A program made the position numbers and the translations under genes. From positions 1-44,378 of IMG/VR virus record IMGVR_UViG_3300027771_000030: DNA of 44,378 bases, one strand, 5' to 3'. Position 1 is the stretch's first letter; every line of letters begins with the position of its first letter. This DNA comes from a virus. The notes beneath the pieces are model-generated. The model was given only the letters and a program-made list of their open reading frames with translations, ran no database searches and was not told where the DNA came from. Shown here piece by piece: positions 5,659-40,128 of the stretch.

Positions 5659-7332
5659 ATGGGTCTTGCAATAGGTATAGGTAACGGTATATTGTTTACC
5701 AGTCAAAGGGGTGTTTCCAGTATAATTCCAAAGCTAATAATTGATATATGCGCTAGGGCTACTTACTGTGAGAACAAAACCTGTACAACCTCAATTTTAC
5801 TAGAAATAGAGAACATACAATATACAGCATCCGCAGTGCCAGTTGGATTCCTAGCAAGTTATCCAGGTGCTTCTGCTGCGTATTCTTTAAGAAACCTTAT
5901 TGATACAACCACAAATGTTGTAAGAGTGAGACGTTCAAGTGATAACAGAGAACAAGACTTTTCAGCAACACAAATAACAGATGGAACACTAACAACCTTT
6001 ACTGGGGCAAACGATGGGCTTGTAACTATTTGGTATGACCAATCGAGTAATGGGTATGATTTTGCACAATCCTCTGCAATTAATCAGCCTAAAATAGTAA
6101 ATAGTGGTGTTCTTATTTTAGAAAACGGAAAACCCTCAATAAAATGGGACGGATCAAATGATAGACTTTCAAACTCTTCAGAAATAAGCGCAAATTTAAG
6201 TGATTATTCTTTTTTCGCAGTAGTTAAGAAAACAACAGGATGGTTATTTGATACCTCTATAGGTAGAATGGTAATTGACTTAAATCAAACACTTGCCTCC
6301 AAGTTTTATGCGGGTAATAGCGGAAGAGGTAGTCAAATAATAAACAACAATCAGTCTCTTCGTTCTTTCTTTTTAGATAGTTCTAATGGTGCGGATGTTT
6401 ATGTAGATGGCGATTTAAATCAAGGCGGATTAACTTATCCTCAAGAAAAAATAACAAGTTTCCAAACACTTGGTTCTGATATAAATTCTGGGGGCGGTAC
6501 TTTTTCGAATATGTCTTTACAAGAATTTATTATATATAATTCAGTTCAATCCTCAAATCGAGTTGGAATAGAAACTAATATAAATAACGAATATGATGTA
6601 TATAGGACTAATGAGGTTAGTGGATTATTATTTGATTATCCTGGTTCAATCGGTGCATACAGCTTAAGACAATTAGTGTTTTATCAAGATGGTCATACTC
6701 CAAATTTAATAAGGGTAAGAAGAAGTTCAGATAACGCAGAGCAAAATTTTACAGCCACAGAAATAACAGACGGTACATTAACCACCTTTACAGGTGCTAA
6801 TGATGGATTTATAACTACTTGGTATAATCAAGCGAGGAATATAGGAGATCTTATATCAGCAACGGCAGCGAATCAACCACAAATAGTTAGTAGTGGAACT
6901 TCACTTGGCTATATTCAAAGTTTGGGTTCTACGCAACTTAATAGCGATATCAAATATATTAACAGTACTGACTACTCTACCTTTTTTGTAGGACAAAATA
7001 CTGGTCAAACTGTTTGGGGGGCTGACTCAGGAACTGGTTATTACGCAGTTGCACTTGCTGGAAGTAATAACGGGAATGTTAGTGGGTTTACTGAAGGAAA
7101 CCGATATTCTAATGGTTCATTGATTGGCGCAACTTGGGGCGATATGTATAATGCGTTATCATCATTTGCTCAAGTTACTGCTTTGGTTAGAAGACAAAGT
7201 GTTGATAGAAACATTCGTATTGGGTTTAATACTTATAATAATGGAAGATATAAGGAGCTCATAATATACGGAAATCAAAGCGTAAGCAGAACAGGCGTTG
7301 AAACTAATATCATAAACCATTATAACTTTTAA
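5659..7332 (+). CDS. Tail or adsorption protein with two arabinofuranosidase-B-like/LamG repeats (557 aa)
   Basis: After a 60-residue N-terminal part with three Cys, two copies of a 230-250-residue lectin-like domain follow (about 63-315 and 325-557). Each begins with PGxxxAYSLR, continues with RVRRSSDNxEQxF, then DGTLTTFTGANDGxxTxWY, NQPxIV, and ends in GVETNI or GIETNI. This order is typical of the arabinofuranosidase-B-like/concanavalin-A-like modules of Bacteroidetes phage tail proteins, which bind surface glycans in related proteins. No catalytic residues can be argued. The duplication suggests avidity or a swapped module. A fragment of a third C-terminus lies just after the stop (7337-7378). 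Confidence 0.7.
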   Translation: MGLAIGIGNGILFTSQRGVSSIIPKLIIDICARATYCENKTCTTSILLEIENIQYTASAVPVGFLASYPGASAAYSLRNLIDTTTNVVRVRRSSDNREQDFSATQITDGTLTTFTGANDGLVTIWYDQSSNGYDFAQSSAINQPKIVNSGVLILENGKPSIKWDGSNDRLSNSSEISANLSDYSFFAVVKKTTGWLFDTSIGRMVIDLNQTLASKFYAGNSGRGSQIINNNQSLRSFFLDSSNGADVYVDGDLNQGGLTYPQEKITSFQTLGSDINSGGGTFSNMSLQEFIIYNSVQSSNRVGIETNINNEYDVYRTNEVSGLLFDYPGSIGAYSLRQLVFYQDGHTPNLIRVRRSSDNAEQNFTATEITDGTLTTFTGANDGFITTWYNQARNIGDLISATAANQPQIVSSGTSLGYIQSLGSTQLNSDIKYINSTDYSTFFVGQNTGQTVWGADSGTGYYAVALAGSNNGNVSGFTEGNRYSNGSLIGATWGDMYNALSSFAQVTALVRRQSVDRNIRIGFNTYNNGRYKELIIYGNQSVSRTGVETNIINHYNF

Positions 7333-10683: not shown

Positions 10684-12810
10684 ATGGCAAAAATTAGTAC
10701 ATACTCAGTAGTTAGTCCAAAAGGGGCAGATAAAATAATTATTAGTGACGCAGATGGAAGTCCTTCTAACGCAACTAAAAACGTTACCGTTGAAGGACTA
10801 CAGACCTTTATAAATGATGTTCCAGCACCAACACTTCAAGAGGTAACCACATCTGGCAACACTACAAACAAAACTATAACCACACAGGGAATAAAGTCTG
10901 AAGGCACGAGAGATACAGACCTTGTTGTTAAGGTTGGAGACTATGACGGATCGCTTAACAAAACTAAATTAGAGGTTGATGTTGCTAATAAAAAAGTAAC
11001 TGTAGAATCAGATATATTAAGTCTTAATAAACTTGCAGGCAATAGAACAGAAATAACATTTAACCCAACTGCTACTAGGTCAATAGCTATTCCAAATGCT
11101 TCGGGTACAATAGCACTAACATCAGATTTGCCAAGTGCAACGCCATGGAATACAGATACAAACGGAATAAACTACCAGGCAGGAAATGTAGGTATTGGAA
11201 CTGTTAGCGGTGGTGACGCTTTAACTGTTGATGGTCAGATAACTTCAAGTAACATTGAGACTGGTTTTATTTTGGTTGAAGGAAACGCGACTATTGATGA
11301 CGCACTTTCAGCAGGAAGTGTTACGGCTACTACATTAACAGGAAACCTAGTGGGTACGGTAGACACAACCACCACAGGAATAACACAGCCAAGTACAACA
11401 GACAACAACTTACTTGCTACTACAGCATTCGTTCAAGACTTATTGGGTGATATAGTATCAGGATTACAATTTCAAGAACTATGGAATGCGACAACAGACA
11501 TTCCTGACCTTTCTACCGCTACTCCTAGTAACGGAGATTTTTGGATAGTAGAAGTAGCTGGTAATACAAACTTAAGTGGAATTACAAGTTGGGCCGTAGG
11601 CGACTGGGCTATATACATAGTCCCAGCAGGTGGTGGTGCAGCGTTTTGGCAAAAAGTAGATAATACTACATCAATAGCAGGAAACGGTACAGGTAATCAA
11701 GTTGCAAAATGGAGTGGAGCAGGAGCTTCCACTACACTAACTAACAGTATTATAACATCTACAGCAACCGCTGTAGGTATAAATGTACTTAATCCAACAG
11801 ACGCACTAGAAGTTAATGGACAAATTCAAGGAACATCGCTTGATATAGCTAGTGGAGCTTTAATTCAAGGTAATTTACAGGCAGATCAAGATTTAAATGT
11901 GGATGGTGTTACAACATTAGGTACTACAACAGCTGGAGGTAATTTACAGGCAGATCAAAATTTAAATGTTGATGGTGCTACAACATTAACTTCTGTAACA
12001 GCTTCAGGTACTTTAGGTGTTACTGGAAATGCAACATTTGGAAATGTAGATATTCAAAACACATTAACTGTTGGGAATCCTGCTACATTTAGCTCAGAGG
12101 TTATTACGCCAGAATTACAGGTTGATAAAATACTTGTTGAAATTCCAGGCAATATAATAAAAGTAAAAAACCCAGGGGTTGCTGACCAATTAGAAATTAT
12201 AGGTGAAAGTGGTGTTGATATTGTAAGCGAAGATGGACTAACATTAGAAGTTTCAGATGTTTTTGAGTTTAGGGGCTCGGCAGGAATAAGTGTTTTTAAT
12301 GGAAACGCATTAAATGCTTCCCTGGATGTTAGTCAGATAACAACATCAAGAAATTTTCAGTTTCCTGATAACAATGGAACTATAGCGCTACTAAGTGATA
12401 TCACACCAACAACTGGGCCTTTACAATGGGTAGGTCAGATAGGAACGGATATCTTTGGTGTTCCATCTATTAATAGAACACAGTCTTCTACATTATTTGT
12501 AGGAGACCGAGTAACCACTCCTGCCACATTTAGAGATATATCATTTTCTAAAGACGGAGTAGGAAATTATAGGATTAGAATAAACTTTACTCCAGATACT
12601 GTCCCTACAGATATAGCCAAACTAGCCTTGCAGTTTGGTGATAGCGTAGCTAGGGTTTATAGTTTCTCACAAGGAAGTCAAACTTCAGGGGGGATAACCG
12701 TATCTTATAAAGAATTTTTGTTTAGAACATACACTCCAGAAGGGGTGTTGTCTGACGGACAATTAGATGGGTCAGAAGCAGCTATGACAAGCGTTACGCT
12801 TTATCCATAA
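10684..12810 (+). CDS. Repetitive tail or head fibre protein (708 aa)
   Basis: The sequence has the composition of a beta-rich trimeric phage fibre: Thr, Asn, Gly and Val-rich with few charged residues. It contains repeats such as NVGIGTVSGGDALTVDGQI and VGINVLNPTDALEVNGQI, a TDNNLLATTAFVQDLL segment, and GNGTGNQVAKWSGAG, all common in Bacteroidetes phage fibres. A 23-residue unit (GNLQADQxLNVDGxTTL) is duplicated in tandem. The last 130 residues are a distinct C-terminal domain, probably the tip. No S74 intramolecular chaperone motif is visible. A role in host attachment is likely, but whether it is on head or tail cannot be said. Confidence 0.7.
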   Translation: MAKISTYSVVSPKGADKIIISDADGSPSNATKNVTVEGLQTFINDVPAPTLQEVTTSGNTTNKTITTQGIKSEGTRDTDLVVKVGDYDGSLNKTKLEVDVANKKVTVESDILSLNKLAGNRTEITFNPTATRSIAIPNASGTIALTSDLPSATPWNTDTNGINYQAGNVGIGTVSGGDALTVDGQITSSNIETGFILVEGNATIDDALSAGSVTATTLTGNLVGTVDTTTTGITQPSTTDNNLLATTAFVQDLLGDIVSGLQFQELWNATTDIPDLSTATPSNGDFWIVEVAGNTNLSGITSWAVGDWAIYIVPAGGGAAFWQKVDNTTSIAGNGTGNQVAKWSGAGASTTLTNSIITSTATAVGINVLNPTDALEVNGQIQGTSLDIASGALIQGNLQADQDLNVDGVTTLGTTTAGGNLQADQNLNVDGATTLTSVTASGTLGVTGNATFGNVDIQNTLTVGNPATFSSEVITPELQVDKILVEIPGNIIKVKNPGVADQLEIIGESGVDIVSEDGLTLEVSDVFEFRGSAGISVFNGNALNASLDVSQITTSRNFQFPDNNGTIALLSDITPTTGPLQWVGQIGTDIFGVPSINRTQSSTLFVGDRVTTPATFRDISFSKDGVGNYRIRINFTPDTVPTDIAKLALQFGDSVARVYSFSQGSQTSGGITVSYKEFLFRTYTPEGVLSDGQLDGSEAAMTSVTLYP
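11869..11988 (+). repeat. Tandem 69-base repeat in the fibre gene
   Basis: The 51-base units at 11869-11919 and 11938-11988 differ at three positions and have a period of 69 bases (23 codons). This keeps the frame and could allow length change by slippage. Confidence 0.8.
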
Positions 12811-16185: not shown

Positions 16186-18621
16186 ATGAAGGACGTAAAA
16201 ATAAATATTAACTCTACAGGATTTCCAAGTCAATTTGTTTCTGATGCAGAAAAAGCATCACTTAATTTTGGATTACAAATAGGACAGGCTATTCAATATG
16301 AATGGTTTAGAAAAGATGGTGGACAAAGTAGATTTTATAATCAATGGGCTGATTTTCATAGATTAAGACTTTATGCTAGAGGAGAGCAATCTATACAAAA
16401 ATACAAGAACGAATTAGCTGTAGATGGAGATTTAAGTTACCTTAATTTAGACTGGACTCCAGTACCTATTATTCCAAAGTTTGTGGACATTGTAGTTAAC
16501 GGTATGGCCGACAGGATTTTTACTGTAAATGCTTATGCTCAAGATGGAATGTCTTTAGATAAAAGAAGCAAGTATCAAGTTAATCTTGAAAAAGATATGC
16601 TTGCTAAAGATATGATGAAGAAAGTTCAAAAAGAGTTTGATGTTAATACTTTTGCTATGTCTGAGGAAGAGATTCCAAATACTTCAGAAGAGTTAGCGCT
16701 TCACATGCAAATGAAATATAAGCCATCTATAGAAATAGCTGAAGAAGAAGCTGTTAATACTGTATTGGCTGAAAACAGATATAACGAAACTCAGAAAAGA
16801 TTATACTACGATCAAACTGTTTTAGGAATACAAGTATGTAAAAATACTTTTCAACCCGGAGCCGGAATAAAAGTAGAGTATGTTGACCCTGCTAGTGTAG
16901 TGTATAGCTATACTGAAGATCCTAATTTTCAAGATTGTTTTTATTGGGGTGAAATTAAAACCCTTCCAATTATTGAATTAATAAAAATTGATCCTAGCTT
17001 AACTAGGGTTGATATGGAAGAGATATCTAAATACAGTCAAAGTTGGTATGACTACAATAATACAGCTCAGTATTATAATAATAGTTTATTTAGCAAAGAC
17101 AGTGCAACTGTTTTGTTTTTTAATTATAAAACAACTAAAACATTTACCTACAAAAAGAAAGTAAATGCAGCAGGAGCAGAAAGAGTAATTGAAAAAGATG
17201 ATACTTTTAATCCTACAGAAGAAATGATGGAGGAAGGAAACTTTGAAAAAATTTCTAAAACCATTGATGTTTGGTATGAGGGAGTAATGGTTATGGGTAC
17301 TAGTATTTTACTTAAATGGGAAATGTCAGAAAACATGGCAAGACCACAATCCGCATCTCAAGAAGTATATCCAGAATTTGTAGCTTCTGCACCAAGAATG
17401 TATAAAGGAGCTTTAGAGTCTTTGGTAAGACGTATGATTACATTTGCTGATTTAATTCAGATTACACACTTAAAATTACAACAAGTAATATCTAGAGTTG
17501 TTCCAGATGGTGTATACATTGATGCTGATGGATTGAGTGAAGTAGATCTTGGAACAGGTCAGGCTTATAATCCTGAAGATGCATTAAGGATGTTTTTCCA
17601 AACAGGTTCTGTTATTGGTAGAAGTTATACTCAAGATGGAGATTACAACCAAGCAAAAATTCCTATTCAACAACTTAATAGTAATTCAGGTCAAGCAAAA
17701 ATTCAAAGTCTTATAGGTAGTTATAATCATTATATGTCAATGCTTAGAGATGTAACTGGATTAAACGAAGCAAGAGATGGGTCTACTCCAGATTCTTATG
17801 CGTTAGTTGGATTACAAAAACTAGCTGCTTTAAGTAGTAACACTGCAACAAGACATATATTAGATGCAAGTTTACAAATGTCACAAAGATTGTGTACAGC
17901 ATTATCTAGTAGAATTGCAGATATGCTTCAATATTCTCAATTTAAAGAAGAGTTTGTAAATCAAATAGGTAAGTTTAATGTAGGTCTAATAGAAGAAATT
18001 AAAGATTTATATTTAAGTGATTTTGGAATATTTATAGAAATAATTCCAGATGAAGAAGAAAGAAAATTACTAGAGCAAAATATTCAAATGGCTCTTCAAA
18101 GAGATTCTATAAACTTAGAAGATGCAATTGATATTAGAGAAATAAGAAATATTAAATTGGCCAATCAAGTTTTAAAATTAAAACGTAAAGCTAAACAAGA
18201 TTTAGAACAGCAACAGAAATCAGCAGCAGCTCAACAACAAGCTCAAATAAATCAGCAATCACAGCAGATGGCAGCTCAATCAAAAATGCAGCAATTCCAA
18301 ATGGAAAACCAAGCAGCTATACAATTAGAGCAAGCAAAAGCAGAATTTTCTGTTAAAAAAATGCAAGGTGAAGCCGCTATAAAAGCTGAGTTAATGAATT
18401 TAGAATTTAACCTCAACATGAAACTAAAAGGAGTTGAAGTTGAAGGATTAAAAAGCAGAGAAATTCAAAGAGAGAGTGCTAAATCTAATAGAATATCTCA
18501 AGCAAATACAGAACAGTCTAAATTAATAGAGCAAAGGAAAAACAATTTACCTCCAGTCAGCTTTGAATCATCAGAAGATAGCTTAGATGGTTTTGATTTA
18601 GCTGAATTTGAACCTAGGTGA
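16186..18621 (+). CDS. Portal protein (811 aa)
   Basis: The dodecameric ring at the capsid vertex through which DNA enters and leaves. Seen: WADFHRLRLYARGEQSI near the N-terminus, PVPIIPKFVDIVVNGMADRIF (a stem/wing signature), EYVDPASVVYSYTEDPNF, a long helical part with DVTGLNEARDGSTPDSYA, and a C-terminal Gln/Ala-rich coiled coil (about 660-790). The length of about 800 residues and the ring-interior motifs fit podovirus portals of Bacteroidetes phages. The coiled coil may reach into the head as a barrel. It begins directly after the terminase stop. Confidence 0.8.
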   Translation: MKDVKININSTGFPSQFVSDAEKASLNFGLQIGQAIQYEWFRKDGGQSRFYNQWADFHRLRLYARGEQSIQKYKNELAVDGDLSYLNLDWTPVPIIPKFVDIVVNGMADRIFTVNAYAQDGMSLDKRSKYQVNLEKDMLAKDMMKKVQKEFDVNTFAMSEEEIPNTSEELALHMQMKYKPSIEIAEEEAVNTVLAENRYNETQKRLYYDQTVLGIQVCKNTFQPGAGIKVEYVDPASVVYSYTEDPNFQDCFYWGEIKTLPIIELIKIDPSLTRVDMEEISKYSQSWYDYNNTAQYYNNSLFSKDSATVLFFNYKTTKTFTYKKKVNAAGAERVIEKDDTFNPTEEMMEEGNFEKISKTIDVWYEGVMVMGTSILLKWEMSENMARPQSASQEVYPEFVASAPRMYKGALESLVRRMITFADLIQITHLKLQQVISRVVPDGVYIDADGLSEVDLGTGQAYNPEDALRMFFQTGSVIGRSYTQDGDYNQAKIPIQQLNSNSGQAKIQSLIGSYNHYMSMLRDVTGLNEARDGSTPDSYALVGLQKLAALSSNTATRHILDASLQMSQRLCTALSSRIADMLQYSQFKEEFVNQIGKFNVGLIEEIKDLYLSDFGIFIEIIPDEEERKLLEQNIQMALQRDSINLEDAIDIREIRNIKLANQVLKLKRKAKQDLEQQQKSAAAQQQAQINQQSQQMAAQSKMQQFQMENQAAIQLEQAKAEFSVKKMQGEAAIKAELMNLEFNLNMKLKGVEVEGLKSREIQRESAKSNRISQANTEQSKLIEQRKNNLPPVSFESSEDSLDGFDLAEFEPR

Positions 18622-18676: not shown

Positions 18677-19771
18677 ATGGAAATTAAAGTATCTGAAGTA
18701 AACCCTTTAGAACAAAAGTCAGTTCAAGAGGTAGAAAAAAATCTTTTAGACAAACATGAAAAAGAATTAAACTCTAATGAAGAGATTGAATCTGAAAACT
18801 TGTCAGAGGTAAAAGAAGAAGAAAAAGAAGAAGTTTCTCCAACTATAAAGGATGAAGACGTTCTTTCATATATTAATAATAGATATAATAAAGACATATC
18901 TTCAGTAGATGATTTATTTTCTCAAAAAGAAATAAATGAAGAACTACCAGAGGATGTTTCTAAATATTTAAATTTTAAAAAAGAAACTGGTCGGGGTTTT
19001 AATGATTTTGTAAAAGCCAATAGGGATTACGATGATTTAAACGAAGACCAAGTGTTAGCAGAATATTATTCTTTAACAGAAACTGATTTAGATAATGATG
19101 ATATTCATTACCTAATTGAAGATAAGTTTTCATACGATGAAGACTTAGATGATGAAAAAGAAGTTAAAAAGAAAAATATAGCTAAAAAAAGAGAACTTTC
19201 TAAAGCTAAAAAGTATCTTAATGATTTTAAAGAAAAATACAGCGTTCCTCTTGAGTCAAGTGGGAAAGCTATTTCTGAAGAAAACAAAAAGGAACTTGAA
19301 GCTTACCAAAGTTATATTCAAGAATCTAAAACAGTTCAAGAAGCTAATCTTAAAAAGAATGAGTATTTTGAAAAAAGAACAAGTGAAGTTTTTAACTCTG
19401 AATTCAAAGGTTTTGAGTTCGAAATAGGAGATAAAAAAATAGGTTATTCTTATGGAGATGCACAGGAAATGAAAGCGAAACAAATGGATCTGAATAATTT
19501 CATAGGTAAATACCTAGGAGATGACGGATTGATTAAAGACGCAAAAGGTTGGCATAAAGCAATTAGTGCTGCAATGGATCCTGACCGCTTTGCAAAGTAT
19601 TTTTATGAGCAAGGTAAAGCCGATAGTGTAGGAGATATTTCTAAACAAAGTAAAAACATCAATATGAAGATGAGAGGTACTCCACAAGCAATAGGTGAAA
19701 CAGGATTTAAAGCAAGACAAATTAATGACGCATCTGGAAAAGGTTTAAGAATAAGAAGTAAAAATAAATAA
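18677..19771 (+). CDS. Acidic coiled-coil protein, probable capsid scaffold (364 aa)
   Basis: The first half is very Glu/Asp-rich and low-complexity (VKEEEKEEVSPTIKDED, DLDDEKEVKKK), and the second half is helical and ends in basic GKGLRIRSKNK. This distribution, the location just before the major capsid gene and the lack of a fold signature are typical of scaffolding proteins, which shape the prohead and bind capsid through a basic C-terminus. No protease motif is visible. Confidence 0.65.
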   Translation: MEIKVSEVNPLEQKSVQEVEKNLLDKHEKELNSNEEIESENLSEVKEEEKEEVSPTIKDEDVLSYINNRYNKDISSVDDLFSQKEINEELPEDVSKYLNFKKETGRGFNDFVKANRDYDDLNEDQVLAEYYSLTETDLDNDDIHYLIEDKFSYDEDLDDEKEVKKKNIAKKRELSKAKKYLNDFKEKYSVPLESSGKAISEENKKELEAYQSYIQESKTVQEANLKKNEYFEKRTSEVFNSEFKGFEFEIGDKKIGYSYGDAQEMKAKQMDLNNFIGKYLGDDGLIKDAKGWHKAISAAMDPDRFAKYFYEQGKADSVGDISKQSKNINMKMRGTPQAIGETGFKARQINDASGKGLRIRSKNK

Positions 19772-19796: not shown

Positions 19797-21224
19797 ATGG
19801 CAGGATCAGTACAGAATGTTCCAGGGTTTGACTTACAGCCAAGCTCAGAACAAGTCTTATTACAGACAAATTACATTACTAACTTTGATTTCTTGAATCA
19901 GTATCTTCCAGATACTTACGAAAAAGAATTTGAACGTTATGGAAACAGAACAGTAGCATCATTCTTAAGAATGGTAGGCGCTGAAATGCCTTCTAACTCA
20001 GACCTTATTAAATGGGCAGAGCAAGGAAGACTACACACGAAGTATACAAATGTAACTTCAGCAGCAGCAGTAGAAGCTAATACAGCAACGTTGACAATTG
20101 GAGATGCCTTAGTACCAGGTTCTGGTTCTATAGCTATTCGTGTTGGACAAACAATTATGTTGTCTGACAGTACTGCTAACTCAACTAATAGTAACAAGGC
20201 AATTGTAACAGCAGTAGATACTGCAGCAGGAACAGTTGATGTAGCTTATTATGAAGCAGCAGGACAAACAATGGCAGCAGCAGTTGTATGTTCATTGTTT
20301 ATTTATGGTTCAGAATTTCAAAAAGGTTCTATCGGAATGCAAGGTCAACTTGAAGCTGATGATTCTATATTTGAAAACTCTCCAATTATCATTAAAGACC
20401 GTTACGCAGTATCTGGTTCTGATATGGCTCAAATTGGATGGATTGAAGTAACTACAGAAAACGGTGCAACTGGATTCTTATGGTACATGAAATCAGAACA
20501 TGAAACTCGTTTACGTTTCGAGGACTACCTTGAAACATCAATGGTTGAAGCCGTACCAGCAGAAGCAGGTGGTGGAGCAGCAGCAATTGTAGAAGGAGTT
20601 GCATCTGGAGTAGGTAACAAAGGTTCAGAAGGTATGTTCTATGTTATTGAAAATAGAGGTAATGTTTGGGCAGGTGGAAATCCTAACGCATTAGCAGATT
20701 TTGATGCAATTATTTCTCGTCTAGATAAGCAAGGTTCTATTGAAGAAAATGTTATTTTCTTAAACAGAGACTTTGGATTTGACATTGACGATATGTTAGC
20801 ATCACAAAACTCTTATGGAGGAGGTGGTACATCTTATGGTCTTTTTGACAATGACGAAGAGATGGCTTTAAATCTAGGATTTACAGGATTCCGTAGAGGT
20901 TATGATTTCTACAAAACAGACTGGAAATACCTAAACGACCCAACAATGCGTGGAGATATCGTAGGTGGAGCTGTTAATGGTGTTTTAGTACCAGCAGGTT
21001 CAACTACTGTATATGACCAAGTATTAGGAAAGAATGCAAAGCGTCCTTTCTTACATGTTCGTTACAGAGCTTCAGAAACTGAAGACAGACGTTATAAGAC
21101 TTGGATTACAGGTTCTGCAGGTGGAGCAGCTACTTCTAGCTTAGATGCTATGGAAGTAAACTTCTTATCTGAAAGAGCTTTATGTACTTTAGGTGCTAAT
21201 AACTTCTTTATTTTCACAAACTAG
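19797..21224 (+). CDS. Major capsid protein (475 aa)
   Basis: A capsid subunit, HK97-type by context and length. The N-terminus has NYITNFDFLNQYLPDTYEK and GNRTVASFLRMVGAEM; residues 90-175 are an Ala/Thr-rich beta insertion (VEANTATLTIGD, VDVAYYEAAGQT); then GSIGMQGQLEADDSIF, KDRYAVSGSDMAQIGW, and a C-terminal SLDAMEVNFLSERALCTLGANNFFIF. The coding region is less AT-rich at third positions and uses a narrower set of codons than its neighbours, as expected for a highly expressed gene. It is followed by a strong terminator. Confidence 0.8.
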   Translation: MAGSVQNVPGFDLQPSSEQVLLQTNYITNFDFLNQYLPDTYEKEFERYGNRTVASFLRMVGAEMPSNSDLIKWAEQGRLHTKYTNVTSAAAVEANTATLTIGDALVPGSGSIAIRVGQTIMLSDSTANSTNSNKAIVTAVDTAAGTVDVAYYEAAGQTMAAAVVCSLFIYGSEFQKGSIGMQGQLEADDSIFENSPIIIKDRYAVSGSDMAQIGWIEVTTENGATGFLWYMKSEHETRLRFEDYLETSMVEAVPAEAGGGAAAIVEGVASGVGNKGSEGMFYVIENRGNVWAGGNPNALADFDAIISRLDKQGSIEENVIFLNRDFGFDIDDMLASQNSYGGGGTSYGLFDNDEEMALNLGFTGFRRGYDFYKTDWKYLNDPTMRGDIVGGAVNGVLVPAGSTTVYDQVLGKNAKRPFLHVRYRASETEDRRYKTWITGSAGGAATSSLDAMEVNFLSERALCTLGANNFFIFTN

Positions 21225-33180: not shown

Positions 33181-36100
33181 ATGGAAGAATTATATAACGC
33201 ACTTGTTGAACAAGGAAAATACACAAAGTCTTTTGAAGATTTTAAAGCACAGTTTAGTGCGCCTGAAAAAACTAAAATGCTTTACGAGTCATTAAGTAGT
33301 TCGGGGGATTATACTAAATCTTTTGAAAAATTTACTTCTCAATTTGGTTTTACTGAAAAAAAAAATCAAGTCGATACTCCTTCAGGTGGTCAAGAGGAAG
33401 TTACGGAATCCATTACAGAAACGGAAACAATTCCTGGCTCTTCGGATTCTTTAGAAGAACAAGATGATTCACCCGTAATACAAGATGACAGCTCTGATTC
33501 AGTCCCATTTGTTGAATTTCCTGTCGTAGAGGAAGAGATTGAACCTTTAATTCCTGATGCACCTAATAGAAAGGGTGTGTTAAATAATGAAGACGGAAGT
33601 GTGTCTACTCATAAAATGAAGACCGAAACCGATGGTCAGGGCAATTGGTTTTCATTCCCTACAGTATTTCAAAATGAAGACGGAAGTTTTGTTGACATGT
33701 CTGAAGAAGCAGAACAAGACTGGGAGCCTGTATATGAAGAAGCCAAAAAGAGAGGAGAAGTTTCAGATTTTGGAACAGATAAGGAGTCTGCGATTTCATA
33801 TGGAAAAGGTTCATGGAAGCCTTCATATGATTCTAAGAAACAAAACAAACTGCTATTAGATTCAGGTTATTTAGCTTATGAAGAAGAGACCTCAGAATAT
33901 GCAAATGTAACTGATACTATTGATTTTGACAAAGAAGGTGTAACCCGAAACATAATACCAGAAAGGGAATATGGATTTATTAATCCAGAGACAGGTCAAA
34001 AAGAACTTAAGAAAGCATCAGAGCTTAGTCCAGAATTATTAGAAGCTGTTGAAACATACGACACTGCAACTAATGATGTTGAAAATCCAAATTACTTAGA
34101 TGTTGATCTTGATGAGGGAGAAGTTGGAAATGCTAACTCATTTTTAAGAGGCGTTATTGAAAAAGATGGCGGAAATGTAACAGATTATTTGAAGTGGGAA
34201 AAGAAAAATACTAGGAACGAAACTGGTGTATATAAGTGGATGAAGAATGTGCTACTTACCGAAGAACCTGAAAAGTTTTTTGAACAAAAAAATTATTATG
34301 AAAAAGTTCAATCATATAAAGCTGCACAACTCAATCAAATTGCTAAGAGATTAGCTAAAAACGAAGCACAACTATCTCTGACCTCTGACCCTAAACAGAT
34401 AAAAGAATTAAAAAGTGAAGGAAAGGAATTAGTAAAAGAATTTAAAACAAAAGCCAAGAGTATTTCTACTACAATTAATGATTTTCCTGATTTTAAAAAA
34501 GAAACAGAGGACACTGACTTAAGAAGAAGGAAAGCTATGTATGAGGCCGCTCAGGAAGGTGGAGCAGCTGAAGGAGGTCAAGGATTAGTTGAAATACTTG
34601 CTACCGGAGGAAATTCTTTAGCTGGTTTTGGTCTTGATTTTTTAGCTTCTGTACCTGCTTTTTTTGACCAAAGGATTGCAACTATAGGAAAGGGAGATGA
34701 TAAGTTTGATGATAAAGGTTTTTTAAAAGGTCTTGAAGAAATGTTTACTGACAGTAAGGTGGCTCTTGAAACATCAACTGGAGCAGTAAAAAGAAGTGCT
34801 TTTTTAGACGGAAAGCCAGTTCTTAGTTTAGGAAAAGAATATATTGTTGATGAAAACGGAACAGTATACGATGCGAATACAAACATAAGGATGGACGGGA
34901 TTATTTCTCCTGAAAAAATAAAAGAAATACAAACTTTATCTAAAGATGTTACAGAGACTGTAACTAATTGGACAGGAGGTTCTGTAGCTCAAGGAGGTGT
35001 AGGTATGCTTGTACACCTATACGGCTTAATTAGAACATCAGGAAAAGTAACAAAGAAACTAGGTTTCAAAGGCCCAAAAGGAGCTGGTTTAGGAATGGGA
35101 CTTACTTCTTTTGCAAGTGGTATTACGGGGAATGTTGAGGACGTAAGGTCTCAGCTAGTGGCTTCAGGTATGTCTGAAAAAGAAGCTATGGATATAGCTG
35201 TAAATGCAGGTCAGGCCATATCTACTTTAGATGGTATATTTTCTGGATTAGCAGGTGGTAATCAAAAACTACTAACAGGGTTTACAGGAGTTAAAGAGCA
35301 AATAAAAAACTTAGCAGTAAAAGAAGGTACAAAATTCACAGTTAAACAACTTGTAGATAAGGGTAAGGGTTTGTTAAAAGAAAACTTCAAAGAGGTTGTT
35401 ATTGAAGAACTTCCAGTTTATGCTTCTGAAAAGGGAATAAACTACTTGGTAAACAGACATATTGGAAATGAGGTATTAAATGATAAGATAACAAAAGCAG
35501 GTATAATGGAGACAGTAGTTATGACTGTAGGGGCTACATCTGGTTTAGGAAGCAGAAAGTTGTTGTCAGGAAACAGAAGGTCTGACCTAGTTAGGCTTGC
35601 AGCGGCAAATGTAAAAGACCTACAATCTACATTAGATGTTTTGGTTAAAGAAGGTTCTTTAACTGAAAAGGAGTCTTCAGACGCATATACAGAGATTTAT
35701 AATATGCAGTCAGCAGAGTTAAAAACTCAAGGAACTATAAAGGTTTCTGAAAACTTAGAGCCTGCATCTGACTTATTAACTCAAAGACAAAATTTAATAA
35801 ACAAAAAACAGGGACTAGAAGGCCCGGGTAAAGATCGCATTGATAAACAAATAGCAGCTGTAGACCAGCAACTAGATGCTCTTTATAAAAAAGACGAATT
35901 ACAGGTTCAAGAAGAATTAACTAAACAAAAAGAAGAAGATGCCATTTCAAAGCCAAGCACAGCAATAGAGATTTCATTCCCGTCAAATCCGTATTATTTT
36001 GAATATGAATCAGAACAAGACATACCTAATAAATTATTAGGTATTGTACCTATTTCTAAATCAGAAATCGAAGTTGATGGTAAAAAGAAAATAAAATTAA

Positions 36101-39100
36101 CATTTAGCGGTCAGCAGTTAATTGACGCAGGACTTGCTACTAGCCCAAAAACAGAAACAGATGCCATTTCAAAGCCAAGCACAGAGGAGCAAGTGCTACA
36201 GGATGCTCCAACAAGCAAAAAAGAGGGGGGAGACTCCGAAGTGGAACTGCGACAAGTGGGAGAAGGAGACGTTGGACAAGTCACTACCGAAACGCAAGTC
36301 GAAGAAGGTGAAACGCAAGCCGATAAGCCTAGCGACACGACTACGGAGGGAGATGCTGAACAGTTAGTAGAACCTAACTCAACAGAGGAAGGTATGAGTG
36401 TGAACAAGGAAAGAGTAGACTCTATTGTTGATGGTATAGTTAAGAAAACAAAAAGCCGAAACGTAGGAGAACAAACAAATCCTCAAAAACTTGCTGATAA
36501 TGCAATAGAATATTTAAAAGGTTCTAAGTTATTTGAACAAGCAACAGACACGGAAAGAGAGACAATACTTAGAGATGTTAGCAAAAAGCTAGGAGTAGAA
36601 ATTAAAGCTCCTACTGCTAAAAAACTTTTAGGTATAAAAAGAATTGGGAAACCTAAAACTATTACAGTAAAAAGTGACTATGCTGCAATGAAGAAAGATC
36701 TTCAGAAAGAATCGAAGGTTGCTAGAGATGCTAAGAACGATGTAAACAAAAGAAGAAAAGGTTTACAAGGGGCTATAGATTTGGTTTTGAAAACAGGTAA
36801 TATTACAACTAAAAAAGCAAACTCATTACTTAAAAAAGTTTCTAATGTAAATTTATATAACGCCAAGAAAGTTCAAGACGTAATAGATTTTACTACAAGA
36901 GCCATGAATGATGCTGAGTATTCTAATAAGTTAGATAAGGCTAAGAAACTTCAGGCATCTATTAAGAAAAAATTAAAGGGTAAAGAGGCTGGACTTTCTG
37001 ACGCTGCAAAGAAATTTACCCAAGTAAATCCAAGCAATGTAAACGATATTGATACATATTTAGAAAAAGCATCTGAAATTAGTAATGGTCTTAAGCCAAC
37101 TAGGAAACCATCTAAGGGGAAACTTAAAGTAAGTAAGCCTTTTGATATTAAAAAAATTGAGGAGTATTCAAAAAAAGAAACTGAATTAGAAGCAGAAAGA
37201 AACTATGAGTTAGCCAAAGAGTCATTTCAAGAATTAACAGGGCTAGAGCCAGGGGACTTAACTCTTGACCAAATTAAAGAGATGTTGTACGAGGTAGACG
37301 GTTCAACAACCACTTCTGAGGCAGATACAAAAACTCTTAAAGAAAAAGAGGCGGCAATTGATAAAGCAGCAAATAACGCTTTTAAAAACACTAAGATAAA
37401 TATAAAGGAAGCTATTAAGTCAGGGGATATGGAGCTTAGTAAATCCCAAAAAACTTTGATTGGTAATTTCTTAAATATGGACTTAAGTGTAATGACTACC
37501 AAGCAAAAATTGGAGGCATTAGATTCAATTGTTAATTTTGAACTGAACCAGTCTACAGGGGGAATGGAGGCTTCTTTTAAGCAGCAAGTTGGTAATAGTA
37601 AAATTAATAGTTTAGAAAATAAAGGAGTTAAAAGTGCTGACAACAAATCATTATTTGGTTTAGGTAAATTTTGGAACAAACAAATATCCACTTTACCTAA
37701 TGTATTTGAACTTACATTTAAGTCTCAACAGAAAGGGAGAATGGTTATGGATGCTTTAGGACTTGACGGAATAATAAACGGTAGCGCAAAGGCTCAAAAA
37801 GAAGCAGCTAAAACAGAGAAAGATTATGCAGATACATTTGCAAAAAAGAAAATGCAAGACGGTATATACTTTGACGAATTTAATGATACTGAAAGAAGTA
37901 TATTAGCAGATGTAAGGAGATTTACTCCAGGTAAAGAGCAAAAGGAATTTGAAGATAGTAAGAATCTTATTAAGCAAACTTACGAAAGACTTATGGCTTC
38001 AGGAGACAAGTTAAAAGTTAAAAAGGGTGAGATTGTTAAAGCTCAATATGACAAACTTATAAAGGACTCTAACTCTATAGCGGACGTTGAAAGTAAAGCA
38101 GACCCTGCAAATTTAGATGGAGTAAAATATGTTACTGAAATTTGGGCTGAAAAATATAACGAATTAGCTGATACGTCCTTGAACGTATATAACAAGAATC
38201 TAGGAAAAGACACTAACTATACCCCTAGAAATATTCAAAAATTAAAGCAACCAAAAGCAGAAGATGTAGATATAACACAACCTGTTTTTAATCCTGAAGG
38301 AAATAAAAGAAAAAGTGCTTACGACAAAAAAACAGGAGTTTTAAAAGAAGCTACTAAACCTGGGGCTCTTGAGGCAGGAGATGTATTAAATTTAAGTTTT
38401 GATGCTCAGAACATGAGTAATTATAAAGCTGCTTTAACTGATATATATACAGCCCCTTCTATACAACAAGTGAAAGGAGCTAGAGAGTCAAAATCTTTTA
38501 ACGAAGTTTTTACAAATGAATCAGCAAAAGAAATAATTAATGACAGAATAAATAGTTATGTAGATTCTAAACGAGGTAAAAAATATGTTGATGGTTCAAC
38601 AAAAAGAACTTTAAATCGTTTGAATAAGGTTGCTACATTAGGTGTATCTAGAGTTTTAGGTGGGCCAACTCAGTTTGTAAAACAAGTAGTTCCTATTTTT
38701 AACACAATGTTTAATGCAGGTCTCAGCAATACATTAAAAGGATCTAAGTTAATTTTTGATGCTGAGGTTCAAAAGGCTATAGACAATTCAGGCTTACCTA
38801 TTGCTAACAGGGGAATACAATCTCAATCAGATATTGAAAATGCTGATAGTAGAATTAAAAAGAAAGCACAGACAAAAGGAGGTAGAGTAATTGACGCTGC
38901 TGATTCAATAAATAAAAAGACTCTTGAAGCTTTCTTGGTGTATCCCGATGTTCAGACAGCAAGAGCTTCTTTTATTGCTTATTATATTCAGCAAGTAAAA
39001 AAAGATGGAGGAGATACTACTAATATTGATTGGTCTAAACCATTAGATAAAAAAGCTGCACAGTATGCACAGCAACAAGTGGATAGGCAACAAAATACAT

Positions 39101-40128
39101 CTGACCAAGACCTTCAAGGAGATTTGTTTACTGACCAAAGATTTTACCCACAACTAGTTCGTAAAACATTATTCCCTTTTGCAAACTTCTTGTTGAATCA
39201 AAAGACAAGAATGTATTCAGATATAAATACTTTAATTAATAACCCAACTGCTCTTCCAGGTGATAGGACTAGAGCGCTTAAGTCATTAGGGGGTTTAGGT
39301 GTAGAAACGGTAATGTTTAATGCTATTGGTTTAGGAATAACTCAAGCATTAGCTGCTGCCGCAAGATTAATATCAGGAGAAGAAGAAGACCCAAATTTAA
39401 ATAGATATGCTAATAAAAGAGCAAGGGAAGAAAAGAGAGATAAAGAGTTTAGTCAAAGATTAATAGGTAGGGGTGGAAATGCATTAGCAGATGTTCTTGT
39501 TCCAATACCTATTTTAAATGACGAAAGTCTAAATCAAATAAACGGATTAATGAGTTTATTTCAAGACGATGAGGATAATCCATTTCAGTTCTTTGCAAAG
39601 ACAGATAAAAAAATAATTGACATGTTAGGTACGTTGGGAATAGGAGGAAAGAAAGCAGTACTACTTGCTGATATGATTGAAACAATTGTTACAGGGAAAA
39701 AAACTAGTGTTTTTATGGGTAGAGAGAGCAGTGCCGAAATAGACCCTGAAAAATTAAACGCCTTAAAAATGACTACTATGGCTTATGCTATGCATTTAAT
39801 TGGAGTTCCTGTTTTAAATTCAAGCGAAGTAGGATATGTTGCTGAAAGAGCTTTTAAAGATATAGGTAAATCAAGAGAAATAGAAAAGAAAGTTGACTAC
39901 ATTGTAGAGGCTGAAGCTGTACTAAATGAGAGGGGTATTGAAAATCCTTCTCAACAAATGATAGATAATGAAGCAAAGCAATTAAAAAGAATAGGTCAAG
40001 GTAAGGAGCGAAAAGCTGTGAAAAGTAATAGCAAAAGTAAAGATGATAAATCTTTTTCACCAGCTTCTTTTGGTGATGAAAAAGGAAAAAATAAAAGTGG
40101 AAAATCGTTTAATCCTAAATCTTTTTAA
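33181..40128 (+). CDS. Giant internal virion protein (2315 aa)
   Basis: By order this is the largest ejection protein. Residues 1-60 hold two copies of LYxxLxxxGxYTKSFExFxxQF. Residues 125-225 have NEDGSVSTHKM, GNWFSFPTVFQ and RGEVSDFGTDKESAISYGKG, a domain seen in other Bacteroidetes phage virion proteins. Two less polar segments occur at about 470-500 and 600-625. The middle (about 920-1070) is an acidic, low-complexity linker with a duplicated DAISKPST. The second half is helical and Lys-rich. No lysozyme motif or RNA-polymerase DxDGD motif could be seen. A different small protein is encoded out of frame at 36161-36367. Confidence 0.75.
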   Translation: MEELYNALVEQGKYTKSFEDFKAQFSAPEKTKMLYESLSSSGDYTKSFEKFTSQFGFTEKKNQVDTPSGGQEEVTESITETETIPGSSDSLEEQDDSPVIQDDSSDSVPFVEFPVVEEEIEPLIPDAPNRKGVLNNEDGSVSTHKMKTETDGQGNWFSFPTVFQNEDGSFVDMSEEAEQDWEPVYEEAKKRGEVSDFGTDKESAISYGKGSWKPSYDSKKQNKLLLDSGYLAYEEETSEYANVTDTIDFDKEGVTRNIIPEREYGFINPETGQKELKKASELSPELLEAVETYDTATNDVENPNYLDVDLDEGEVGNANSFLRGVIEKDGGNVTDYLKWEKKNTRNETGVYKWMKNVLLTEEPEKFFEQKNYYEKVQSYKAAQLNQIAKRLAKNEAQLSLTSDPKQIKELKSEGKELVKEFKTKAKSISTTINDFPDFKKETEDTDLRRRKAMYEAAQEGGAAEGGQGLVEILATGGNSLAGFGLDFLASVPAFFDQRIATIGKGDDKFDDKGFLKGLEEMFTDSKVALETSTGAVKRSAFLDGKPVLSLGKEYIVDENGTVYDANTNIRMDGIISPEKIKEIQTLSKDVTETVTNWTGGSVAQGGVGMLVHLYGLIRTSGKVTKKLGFKGPKGAGLGMGLTSFASGITGNVEDVRSQLVASGMSEKEAMDIAVNAGQAISTLDGIFSGLAGGNQKLLTGFTGVKEQIKNLAVKEGTKFTVKQLVDKGKGLLKENFKEVVIEELPVYASEKGINYLVNRHIGNEVLNDKITKAGIMETVVMTVGATSGLGSRKLLSGNRRSDLVRLAAANVKDLQSTLDVLVKEGSLTEKESSDAYTEIYNMQSAELKTQGTIKVSENLEPASDLLTQRQNLINKKQGLEGPGKDRIDKQIAAVDQQLDALYKKDELQVQEELTKQKEEDAISKPSTAIEISFPSNPYYFEYESEQDIPNKLLGIVPISKSEIEVDGKKKIKLTFSGQQLIDAGLATSPKTETDAISKPSTEEQVLQDAPTSKKEGGDSEVELRQVGEGDVGQVTTETQVEEGETQADKPSDTTTEGDAEQLVEPNSTEEGMSVNKERVDSIVDGIVKKTKSRNVGEQTNPQKLADNAIEYLKGSKLFEQATDTERETILRDVSKKLGVEIKAPTAKKLLGIKRIGKPKTITVKSDYAAMKKDLQKESKVARDAKNDVNKRRKGLQGAIDLVLKTGNITTKKANSLLKKVSNVNLYNAKKVQDVIDFTTRAMNDAEYSNKLDKAKKLQASIKKKLKGKEAGLSDAAKKFTQVNPSNVNDIDTYLEKASEISNGLKPTRKPSKGKLKVSKPFDIKKIEEYSKKETELEAERNYELAKESFQELTGLEPGDLTLDQIKEMLYEVDGSTTTSEADTKTLKEKEAAIDKAANNAFKNTKINIKEAIKSGDMELSKSQKTLIGNFLNMDLSVMTTKQKLEALDSIVNFELNQSTGGMEASFKQQVGNSKINSLENKGVKSADNKSLFGLGKFWNKQISTLPNVFELTFKSQQKGRMVMDALGLDGIINGSAKAQKEAAKTEKDYADTFAKKKMQDGIYFDEFNDTERSILADVRRFTPGKEQKEFEDSKNLIKQTYERLMASGDKLKVKKGEIVKAQYDKLIKDSNSIADVESKADPANLDGVKYVTEIWAEKYNELADTSLNVYNKNLGKDTNYTPRNIQKLKQPKAEDVDITQPVFNPEGNKRKSAYDKKTGVLKEATKPGALEAGDVLNLSFDAQNMSNYKAALTDIYTAPSIQQVKGARESKSFNEVFTNESAKEIINDRINSYVDSKRGKKYVDGSTKRTLNRLNKVATLGVSRVLGGPTQFVKQVVPIFNTMFNAGLSNTLKGSKLIFDAEVQKAIDNSGLPIANRGIQSQSDIENADSRIKKKAQTKGGRVIDAADSINKKTLEAFLVYPDVQTARASFIAYYIQQVKKDGGDTTNIDWSKPLDKKAAQYAQQQVDRQQNTSDQDLQGDLFTDQRFYPQLVRKTLFPFANFLLNQKTRMYSDINTLINNPTALPGDRTRALKSLGGLGVETVMFNAIGLGITQALAAAARLISGEEEDPNLNRYANKRAREEKRDKEFSQRLIGRGGNALADVLVPIPILNDESLNQINGLMSLFQDDEDNPFQFFAKTDKKIIDMLGTLGIGGKKAVLLADMIETIVTGKKTSVFMGRESSAEIDPEKLNALKMTTMAYAMHLIGVPVLNSSEVGYVAERAFKDIGKSREIEKKVDYIVEAEAVLNERGIENPSQQMIDNEAKQLKRIGQGKERKAVKSNSKSKDDKSFSPASFGDEKGKNKSGKSFNPKSF
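35937..36184 (+). repeat. 26-base direct repeats 222 bases apart inside the giant gene
   Basis: The 26-base sequence beginning AGATGCCATTTCAAAG occurs identically at 35937-35962 and 36159-36184. In the giant frame it encodes DAISKPST. In the +1 frame it is the start (MPFQSQAQ) of the nested gene; in the first copy that frame stops after nine codons. The 196 bases between are AT-rich like the flanks. Confidence 0.85.
36161..36367 (+). CDS. Out-of-frame nested gene for a small basic 'FxSxAQRxxCY' protein (68 aa)
   Basis: In the +1 frame of the giant gene, an ATG starts MPFQSQAQRSKCYRMLQQAK, then KWNCDKWEKETLDKSLPKRK and a KKVKRK tail, and ends at TAG 36365. This is the pattern (MPF.S.AQR..CY..., W.C..WE..T, LP.RK) of a small stand-alone basic phage protein family, kin in style to the 3.1-5.4 kb array. 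The giant frame here reads a bland Glu/Thr/Gly linker. Bases 36181-36360 have 95 G or C in 180 (53%), against about 25% in 36001-36060 and about 32% in 36421-36480. Either a genuine overprinted gene or a former gene captured in another frame. Confidence 0.45.
   Translation: MPFQSQAQRSKCYRMLQQAKKRGETPKWNCDKWEKETLDKSLPKRKSKKVKRKPISLATRLRREMLNS

Follow-up and report, generated by a model that had tools for sequence, protein, structure and literature searches.

Does the short open reading frame that lies out of frame inside a giant virion-type gene of this phage encode a protein of its own, and if so, how did two proteins come to share this DNA? An earlier note had described a small basic protein in the +1 frame of a 2315-residue gene of the window (i.e. 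the whole stretch of 44,378 nucleotides analysed here), at a place where the large protein reads a bland acidic linker. Both statements agree with what we find: the small frame comprises 68 codons, starts with ATG and translates as MPFQSQAQRSKCYRMLQQAKKRGETPKWNCDKWEKETLDKSLPKRKSKKVKRKPISLATRLRREMLNS*, and across the overlap the giant gene's own frame reads DAISKPSTEEQVLQDAPTSKKEGGDSEVEL..., an acidic linker. The following elements, all on the plus strand, are relevant to this locus:

36161–36367, plus strand: nested small basic gene of 68 aa, running from ATG to TAG within the giant gene, in its +1 frame
33181–40128, plus strand: host giant virion-type gene, 2315 aa; the overlap covers residues ~994–1062, an acidic linker between conserved parts
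36146–36160, plus strand: A-rich upstream context without a Shine-Dalgarno motif; in the window copy A at −6 and at −10 to −14, C at −3
36181–36360, plus strand: G+C-rich stretch (95/180), a footprint of dual coding, with G or C at the wobble position of the small gene, which is codon position 1 of the host
35927–35962, plus strand: partial 5′ copy of the start of the cassette, 222 bp upstream, 92% identical to 36149–36184
33620–33859, plus strand: another long +1 open run in the giant gene, 79 codons, unconserved, used as negative control

The count of 95 G or C in 180 bases is exactly as noted earlier; the flanks are slightly more variable than the 25–32% given there, with 60-base samples beyond 36181–36360 ranging from 25 to 40% and some edge samples intermediate.

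Relatives of the small gene are numerous. A first scan of IMG/VR yielded 36, most of them 76–90% identical, and profile and pattern scans of the same collection brought the total to at least about 190 loci. At least 174 of these lie inside an ORF of 200 aa or more, with an identical register in 174/174 and at least 156 distinct nested sequences among the IMG/VR relatives; this sampling was pattern-based rather than a census, the MPF start belonged to the search pattern, the contigs are redundant, and E-values of the collection scans apply to candidates only. The nested gene is conserved in more than 100 related marine phages. Residues M1, P2, F3, S5 and Q8 are invariant in 126 aligned sequences, the MPF[QK]S part being a search seed, and P43 of the 'LP' motif, which was not a seed in those scans, is at least 90% conserved. 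Only two loci, L024:6001-6207 (codon 33, Trp in relatives) and L256:3137-3343 (codon 24), have an in-frame TAG with the rest of the frame intact, and each may reflect an error, a loss or suppression.

The earlier note had also pointed to a stand-alone phage family with the same motifs, and had named a profile search as one way to check it. Such a family exists, both as stand-alone phage relatives (L040, L041, L042) and as PHROG 1375 (function unassigned), which is matched by 43/126 aligned family members with a best E of 2.3e-7. The window copy has no match to PHROG 1375 at E<=0.01 but aligns with members that do. A module of the form MPFxSxAQ...W..ET...LPxR is shared between the family and PHROG 1375, and the motifs MPFxSxxQ, W..(E) and LPxR/K are present. 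When several family members were compared with annotated phages by tblastn, Elemovirus, ctfjg026, 023Pt, S-CBS2, Streptomyces phages and C75C1 were the only phages among the matches listed; the same search with one family member gave no match. The small gene was not found at E<=0.1 in the more distant phages phi38:1, phi19:3, phi13:2, phi46:3 and Gundel_1, and is thus not essential to all such phages. In L034, L083, L113 and L116, the MPFxSxAQ module forms the in-frame N-terminus of longer proteins (126–813 aa).

Next, we asked which of the two frames is under selection. The open length alone is unexceptional: 306 of 20,000 synonymous recodings of the giant gene (1.5%) keep the stretch at 36161 free of stops. 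The +1 run at 33620 contains stops in many relatives, though the host frame there is 73–86% identical; it decays as chance ORFs should and therefore serves as a negative control. In the overlap, variation at host codon positions 1/2/3 amounts to.242/.163/.099 in the clade of the window,.453/.365/.292 in other giant genes and.426/.309/.310 in the scaffold-position hosts described below, with position 3 minus position 1 below zero, including the 95% interval, in all three groups. Downstream in the same scaffold-position genes the pattern is normal (.338/.213/.527). This reversed phase of variation indicates that the small frame constrains the sequence. Moreover, in 99% of pairs the small products resemble each other more closely, by identity, than do the host products encoded by the same DNA. 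An alignment of homologous giant genes and a codon-substitution test in both frames had been suggested as checks, with missing relatives, or a linker kept while the +1 frame is broken, named as evidence against the gene; the outcome is the opposite, the single TAG codons of L024 and L256 being the sole breaks. One could suppose that conservation serves the linker itself and that codon usage merely leaves the +1 frame open; a stop-free +1 frame is indeed not very rare here, as the recodings and the second 79-codon run illustrate. This idea is hardly credible, since the phase of variation is reversed, the small frame is the better conserved one, stand-alone homologues exist and the control run decays.

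The host frame is selected as well. Given the small protein and the codon usage of the phage, the probability of an open host frame is 4.5e-6 for the window copy, and the host peptide has an acid minus base value of +13 where −14.9±3.6 would be expected when open. In 20/20 loci tested the host frame is acidic beyond this null, and in most it is also less hydrophobic. An acidic frame where random synonymous coding gives a basic one argues for selection on the host side. The small frame is kept for its sequence, and the host frame is kept open, acidic and hydrophilic. Judged from these substitution and composition patterns, 36161–36367 is almost certainly a genuine protein-coding gene, and we consider its nested, dual-coding arrangement highly probable too.

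The choice of register appears to follow from the genetic code. In the register used, the best acidity over all synonymous codings averages +21.5; in the other it averages −6, and for 62/145 proteins no open coding exists there. The constancy of the register and the rise in G+C are both explained in this way: the wobble base of the small gene is the first base of the host codon, and G or C beside Lys/Arg codons gives Glu/Gln-type codons in the host frame. A Lys/Arg-rich protein could accordingly share its DNA with an acidic linker in one register only.

How is the small protein expressed? The mean A content over −15 to −1 of nested ATGs is.62–.65, compared with.38 at 6,056 other +1 ATGs in the same hosts, with peaks at −13/−12/−11, −6/−5 and −3/−2, and a Shine-Dalgarno-like motif precedes only 1–7% of nested ATGs. 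In Flavobacterium johnsoniae, ribosome profiling showed that A at −3, −6, −12 and −13 promotes initiation (PMC6847099). In the window copy, positions −6, −12 and −13 are occupied by A and position −3 by C, and the gene starts of the window are in general A-rich and without upstream G, as expected for Bacteroidota. RNA around the nested start is less structured than shuffles (z +1.4), which does not suggest a hidden RNA element, and an Rfam search of the nested-gene region gave no match. Based on this start context, the small protein is very probably translated by independent initiation at its own ATG, and the same late mRNA would give the small protein through an A-rich, Shine-Dalgarno-free initiation signal of the Bacteroidota type.

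Alternatively, the +1 frame could be reached by programmed ribosomal frameshifting, which would produce a fusion of host and small protein, and A-rich stretches do precede the overlap in many loci. A-rich heptamers, however, favour −1 frameshifts, i.e. the wrong direction. Most loci have a stop in the small frame 0–14 codons upstream of the ATG (directly before it in L150, L171, L198 and L215), and all 36/36 loci of the first scan matched from residue 1 despite other peptides having been used as seeds. In L080 and L086, the freed copy behind the giant gene starts at the same ATG as a plain gene. Considering these upstream stops and freed copies, frameshifting is very unlikely.

As a further observation, the partial 5′ copy at 35927–35962 reads MPFQSQAQQ* in the small frame. 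Similar partial same-frame copies lie upstream of the nested ATG in other giant genes, at a distance of 675 bp in L006/L007/L011/L012 and L020-L022 and of 396 bp in L037. These pieces may be scars of duplication or relocation. A recurrent peptide motif of the host frame, e.g. a protease site, was considered and rejected because outside the cassette the motif is limited to one partial copy upstream, present in a few related giant genes.

For the genomic context, we used the head genes of the window as anchors:

16186–18621, plus strand: portal protein (PHROG 6547, E 4e-146), synteny anchor
18677–19771, plus strand: scaffold-position ortholog, 364 aa, E 4e-90, no nested ORF in the window
19797–21224, plus strand: virion structural / major-head-type protein (PHROG 13704), synteny anchor and basis of the rooted tree

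The portal protein shares 67% identity with its counterpart in Podoviridae sp. ctfjg026, 45% with those of the Flavobacterium elemo phages and 38% with that of Cellulophaga phi38:1, suggesting a podovirus-like phage of Flavobacteria-type hosts. A 708-aa protein at 10684–12810 of the window has a Bactofilin-like domain (PF04519, E 2.7e-6, just at the cut-off), which is unusual in a phage structural region.

The nested gene resides in two unrelated kinds of host, namely the giant gene and a gene of ~400 aa which we call scaffold-position because of its synteny, as it sits between the portal and the major-head-type protein. In the clade of the window the host is the giant gene; in most of the sampled relatives it is the scaffold-position gene, whose product has 353–430 aa and in which the small ORF begins at codon 23–65 (90 complete cases). 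A fold search with the scaffold-position protein returned no match. AlphaFold (AF2) modelled residues 1–61 and 66–88 of the window ortholog with very low confidence, and these segments are probably disordered. In addition, L080, L081, L086 and L087 carry the small gene as a stand-alone gene 1–2 bases after the stop of the giant gene, and this giant gene is homologous to nested giants on both flanks of the nested site. In this group of phages the small gene thus has three possible locations: inside the scaffold-position gene, inside the giant gene, or immediately downstream of the giant gene. Among 35 records searched over their whole length, 34 contain exactly one copy, and the remaining record has an 18-residue fragment in addition to its full copy; the scaffold-position gene was found in 34/35.

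We then built trees of the scaffold-position protein without its overlapped part and of the major-head-type protein, the latter being rooted, with a weak rooting. Both trees need only three changes of state. The phages with the small gene in or behind the giant gene form one clade with an SH-aLRT value of 98 in each tree, including the elemo phages in the scaffold-position tree and excluding them in the major-head-type tree. The elemo phages, which are giant-nested, are basal on a long branch in the rooted tree and group with the giant clade in the other. The stand-alone state behind the giant gene lies inside the giant-nested clade (SH-aLRT 100) and therefore represents an escape. Here, the footprint of dual coding fades: GC3 is.28–.47 in escaped copies and ~.70 in nested relatives, and AAG makes up 9–29% of Lys codons compared with 62–86% in close nested kin, showing that AT-rich codon usage returns once the dual-coding constraint is lifted.

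Taken together, there is good reason to believe that the small gene switched its host once inside this phage lineage, in either direction. DNA tuned in this way could be inserted where another gene encodes a disordered linker and not cut that gene short, and this would make a change of host possible. We probably deal with an itinerant overprinted gene, i.e. a single-copy gene that stays nested, changes its host between the scaffold-position and the giant gene, moving as dual-coding DNA with a second frame pre-adapted as an open acidic linker, and can escape to a stand-alone state, with the register dictated by the code. Weak scaffold-position profile matches (E 1e-4 to 4e-4) were seen around the nested gene in some giant genes (G021:26153-26341, G030:35089-35457, G032:9991-10293), with some flank included. 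Flanking DNA may have moved too; the sequence there is acidic and of low complexity.

Could the small protein have been born from the linker frame in this lineage, with stand-alone copies as later escapes? In one clade the stand-alone state does derive from the nested one, as L080 and L086 inside the giant clade illustrate. The family, however, is also stand-alone in unrelated phages (Streptomyces, Synechococcus) and as PHROG 1375, and it occurs in contigs of Acidobacteria, Chloroflexi and Gemmatimonadota, whereas the linkers are restricted to these phages. De novo birth is therefore improbable. The earlier note had left the choice between an overprinted gene and a foreign mini-gene captured so that its DNA serves as a linker. 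As the small family also occurs stand-alone, the capture reading is closer than de novo birth; its foreign and recent part does not stand, because the nested state is old and common to a clade of flavobacterial podoviruses, which excludes a recent foreign capture.

What might the small protein do? It has a net charge of about +13 to +16 and a Lys/Arg tail, and a model of the window copy (pLDDT 86, pTM.50) predicts helices at residues 6–22, 30–37 and 57–67. In Pfam, no credible family was matched by the window copy or its relatives, a PDB sequence search returned spurious matches only (mostly designed proteins) and a PDB fold search with the small protein found none. In BFVD, the model of the small protein has weak matches (E 2.9e-3 and 3.2e-2, 35–40% identity) among uncharacterised proteins of two giant viruses, Harvfovirus and Terrestrivirus. 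Stand-alone bacterial-contig relatives (MPFKSQAQRRKFAELLVEGKIS...) with long histone-like basic tails were seen in L257, L259-L262 and L264-L285, from Acidobacteria, Chloroflexi and Gemmatimonadota bins; these are possibly a chromosomal nucleic-acid-binding family.

The genomic neighbourhood of stand-alone copies bears on the role. In L093 and L095 they follow the portal gene directly and precede the scaffold and/or major head protein, and a further relative lies in the head region of phage 023Pt_psg01. Others lie outside head clusters, near a DNA polymerase (L061) or a ligase-like gene (L092). We tentatively favour a factor of head assembly or nucleic-acid binding, a role suggested by gene order, charge and the model; such a protein would act in head assembly or packaging, binding DNA, RNA or an acidic partner. 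A regulator or anti-host factor apart from head assembly, placed among late genes for its expression only, is a serious though uncertain alternative. It would fit the copies near replication genes and the histone-like tails of the chromosomal relatives, which suggest general nucleic-acid binding; the position of the L093 and L095 copies, and the fact that both nested hosts are virion-type genes, speak against it and for a role in the head.

How does this locus compare with known systems? PHROG 1375 is listed without a function, and the +1 nested state is outside its description. The Flavobacterium phages elemoA-F carry the same small protein, MPFKSKAQMKACYSQDNPKWDCKKWSKETPSKKSLPNKVKKK, in a shorter form of 42 aa in the +1 frame of a 3694-aa 'structural protein'; the nested gene of an elemo phage occupies 52606–52731 of MT497069.1. 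At the nested site of the annotated elemoA_15-9B and ctfjg026 records the giant gene alone is annotated, indicating that gene callers miss the nested gene. Our literature search, in a library with few subscription journals and preprints, found no paper describing it. As cultured Flavobacterium phages carry the gene, its expression and function are testable now.

The usual explanation of an overlap is that a new protein arose within an old gene and became fixed there; in the present case it is the nested protein that is old and the linker that is derived. Having the same gene nested in one host, nested in another and freed, with single-copy genomes for each state, amounts to a natural experiment, in which the cost and rules of dual coding are directly measurable, and a simple coding rule accounts for the single register in which a basic protein is combined with an acidic disordered linker. 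In phiX174, B in A and E in D, like other overprinted phage genes, are nested out of frame with both frames under selection, and in these cases the nested protein arose de novo and stays in a single host gene. Unlike B and E, the nested protein described here is older and widespread, and it has probably changed its host gene. Its whole ORF lies inside a larger one in another frame with its own start and is under purifying selection beyond that of the host frame, as in embedded genes, but it is not restricted to the lineage of a host gene as a de novo gene would be, since relatives occur in unrelated phages and bacterial contigs.

The closest parallel is lambda Rz1 in Rz, likewise a small gene that lies entirely within a larger phage gene, in its +1 frame, with shared DNA that codes for a flexible linker of the host and with separate genes in the same class (PMC6139136). 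Rz1 is a lipoprotein that acts together with its host Rz, whereas the product here is strongly basic with no membrane signal apparent; a direct reading of MPFQSQAQRSKCYRM... revealed no lipobox or signal peptide, no transmembrane segment and no hydrophobic stretch, and the net charge of this copy is about +16. In the survey of Rz1, o-spanins occur in +1 and −1 registers, and no single family mixes the embedded with other architectures (PMC6139136). Unlike the spanins, one family is here both embedded and separate, uses two unrelated hosts and is always in +1. The embedded architecture itself is known, for example from Rz1; what is new is the probable move to another host gene.
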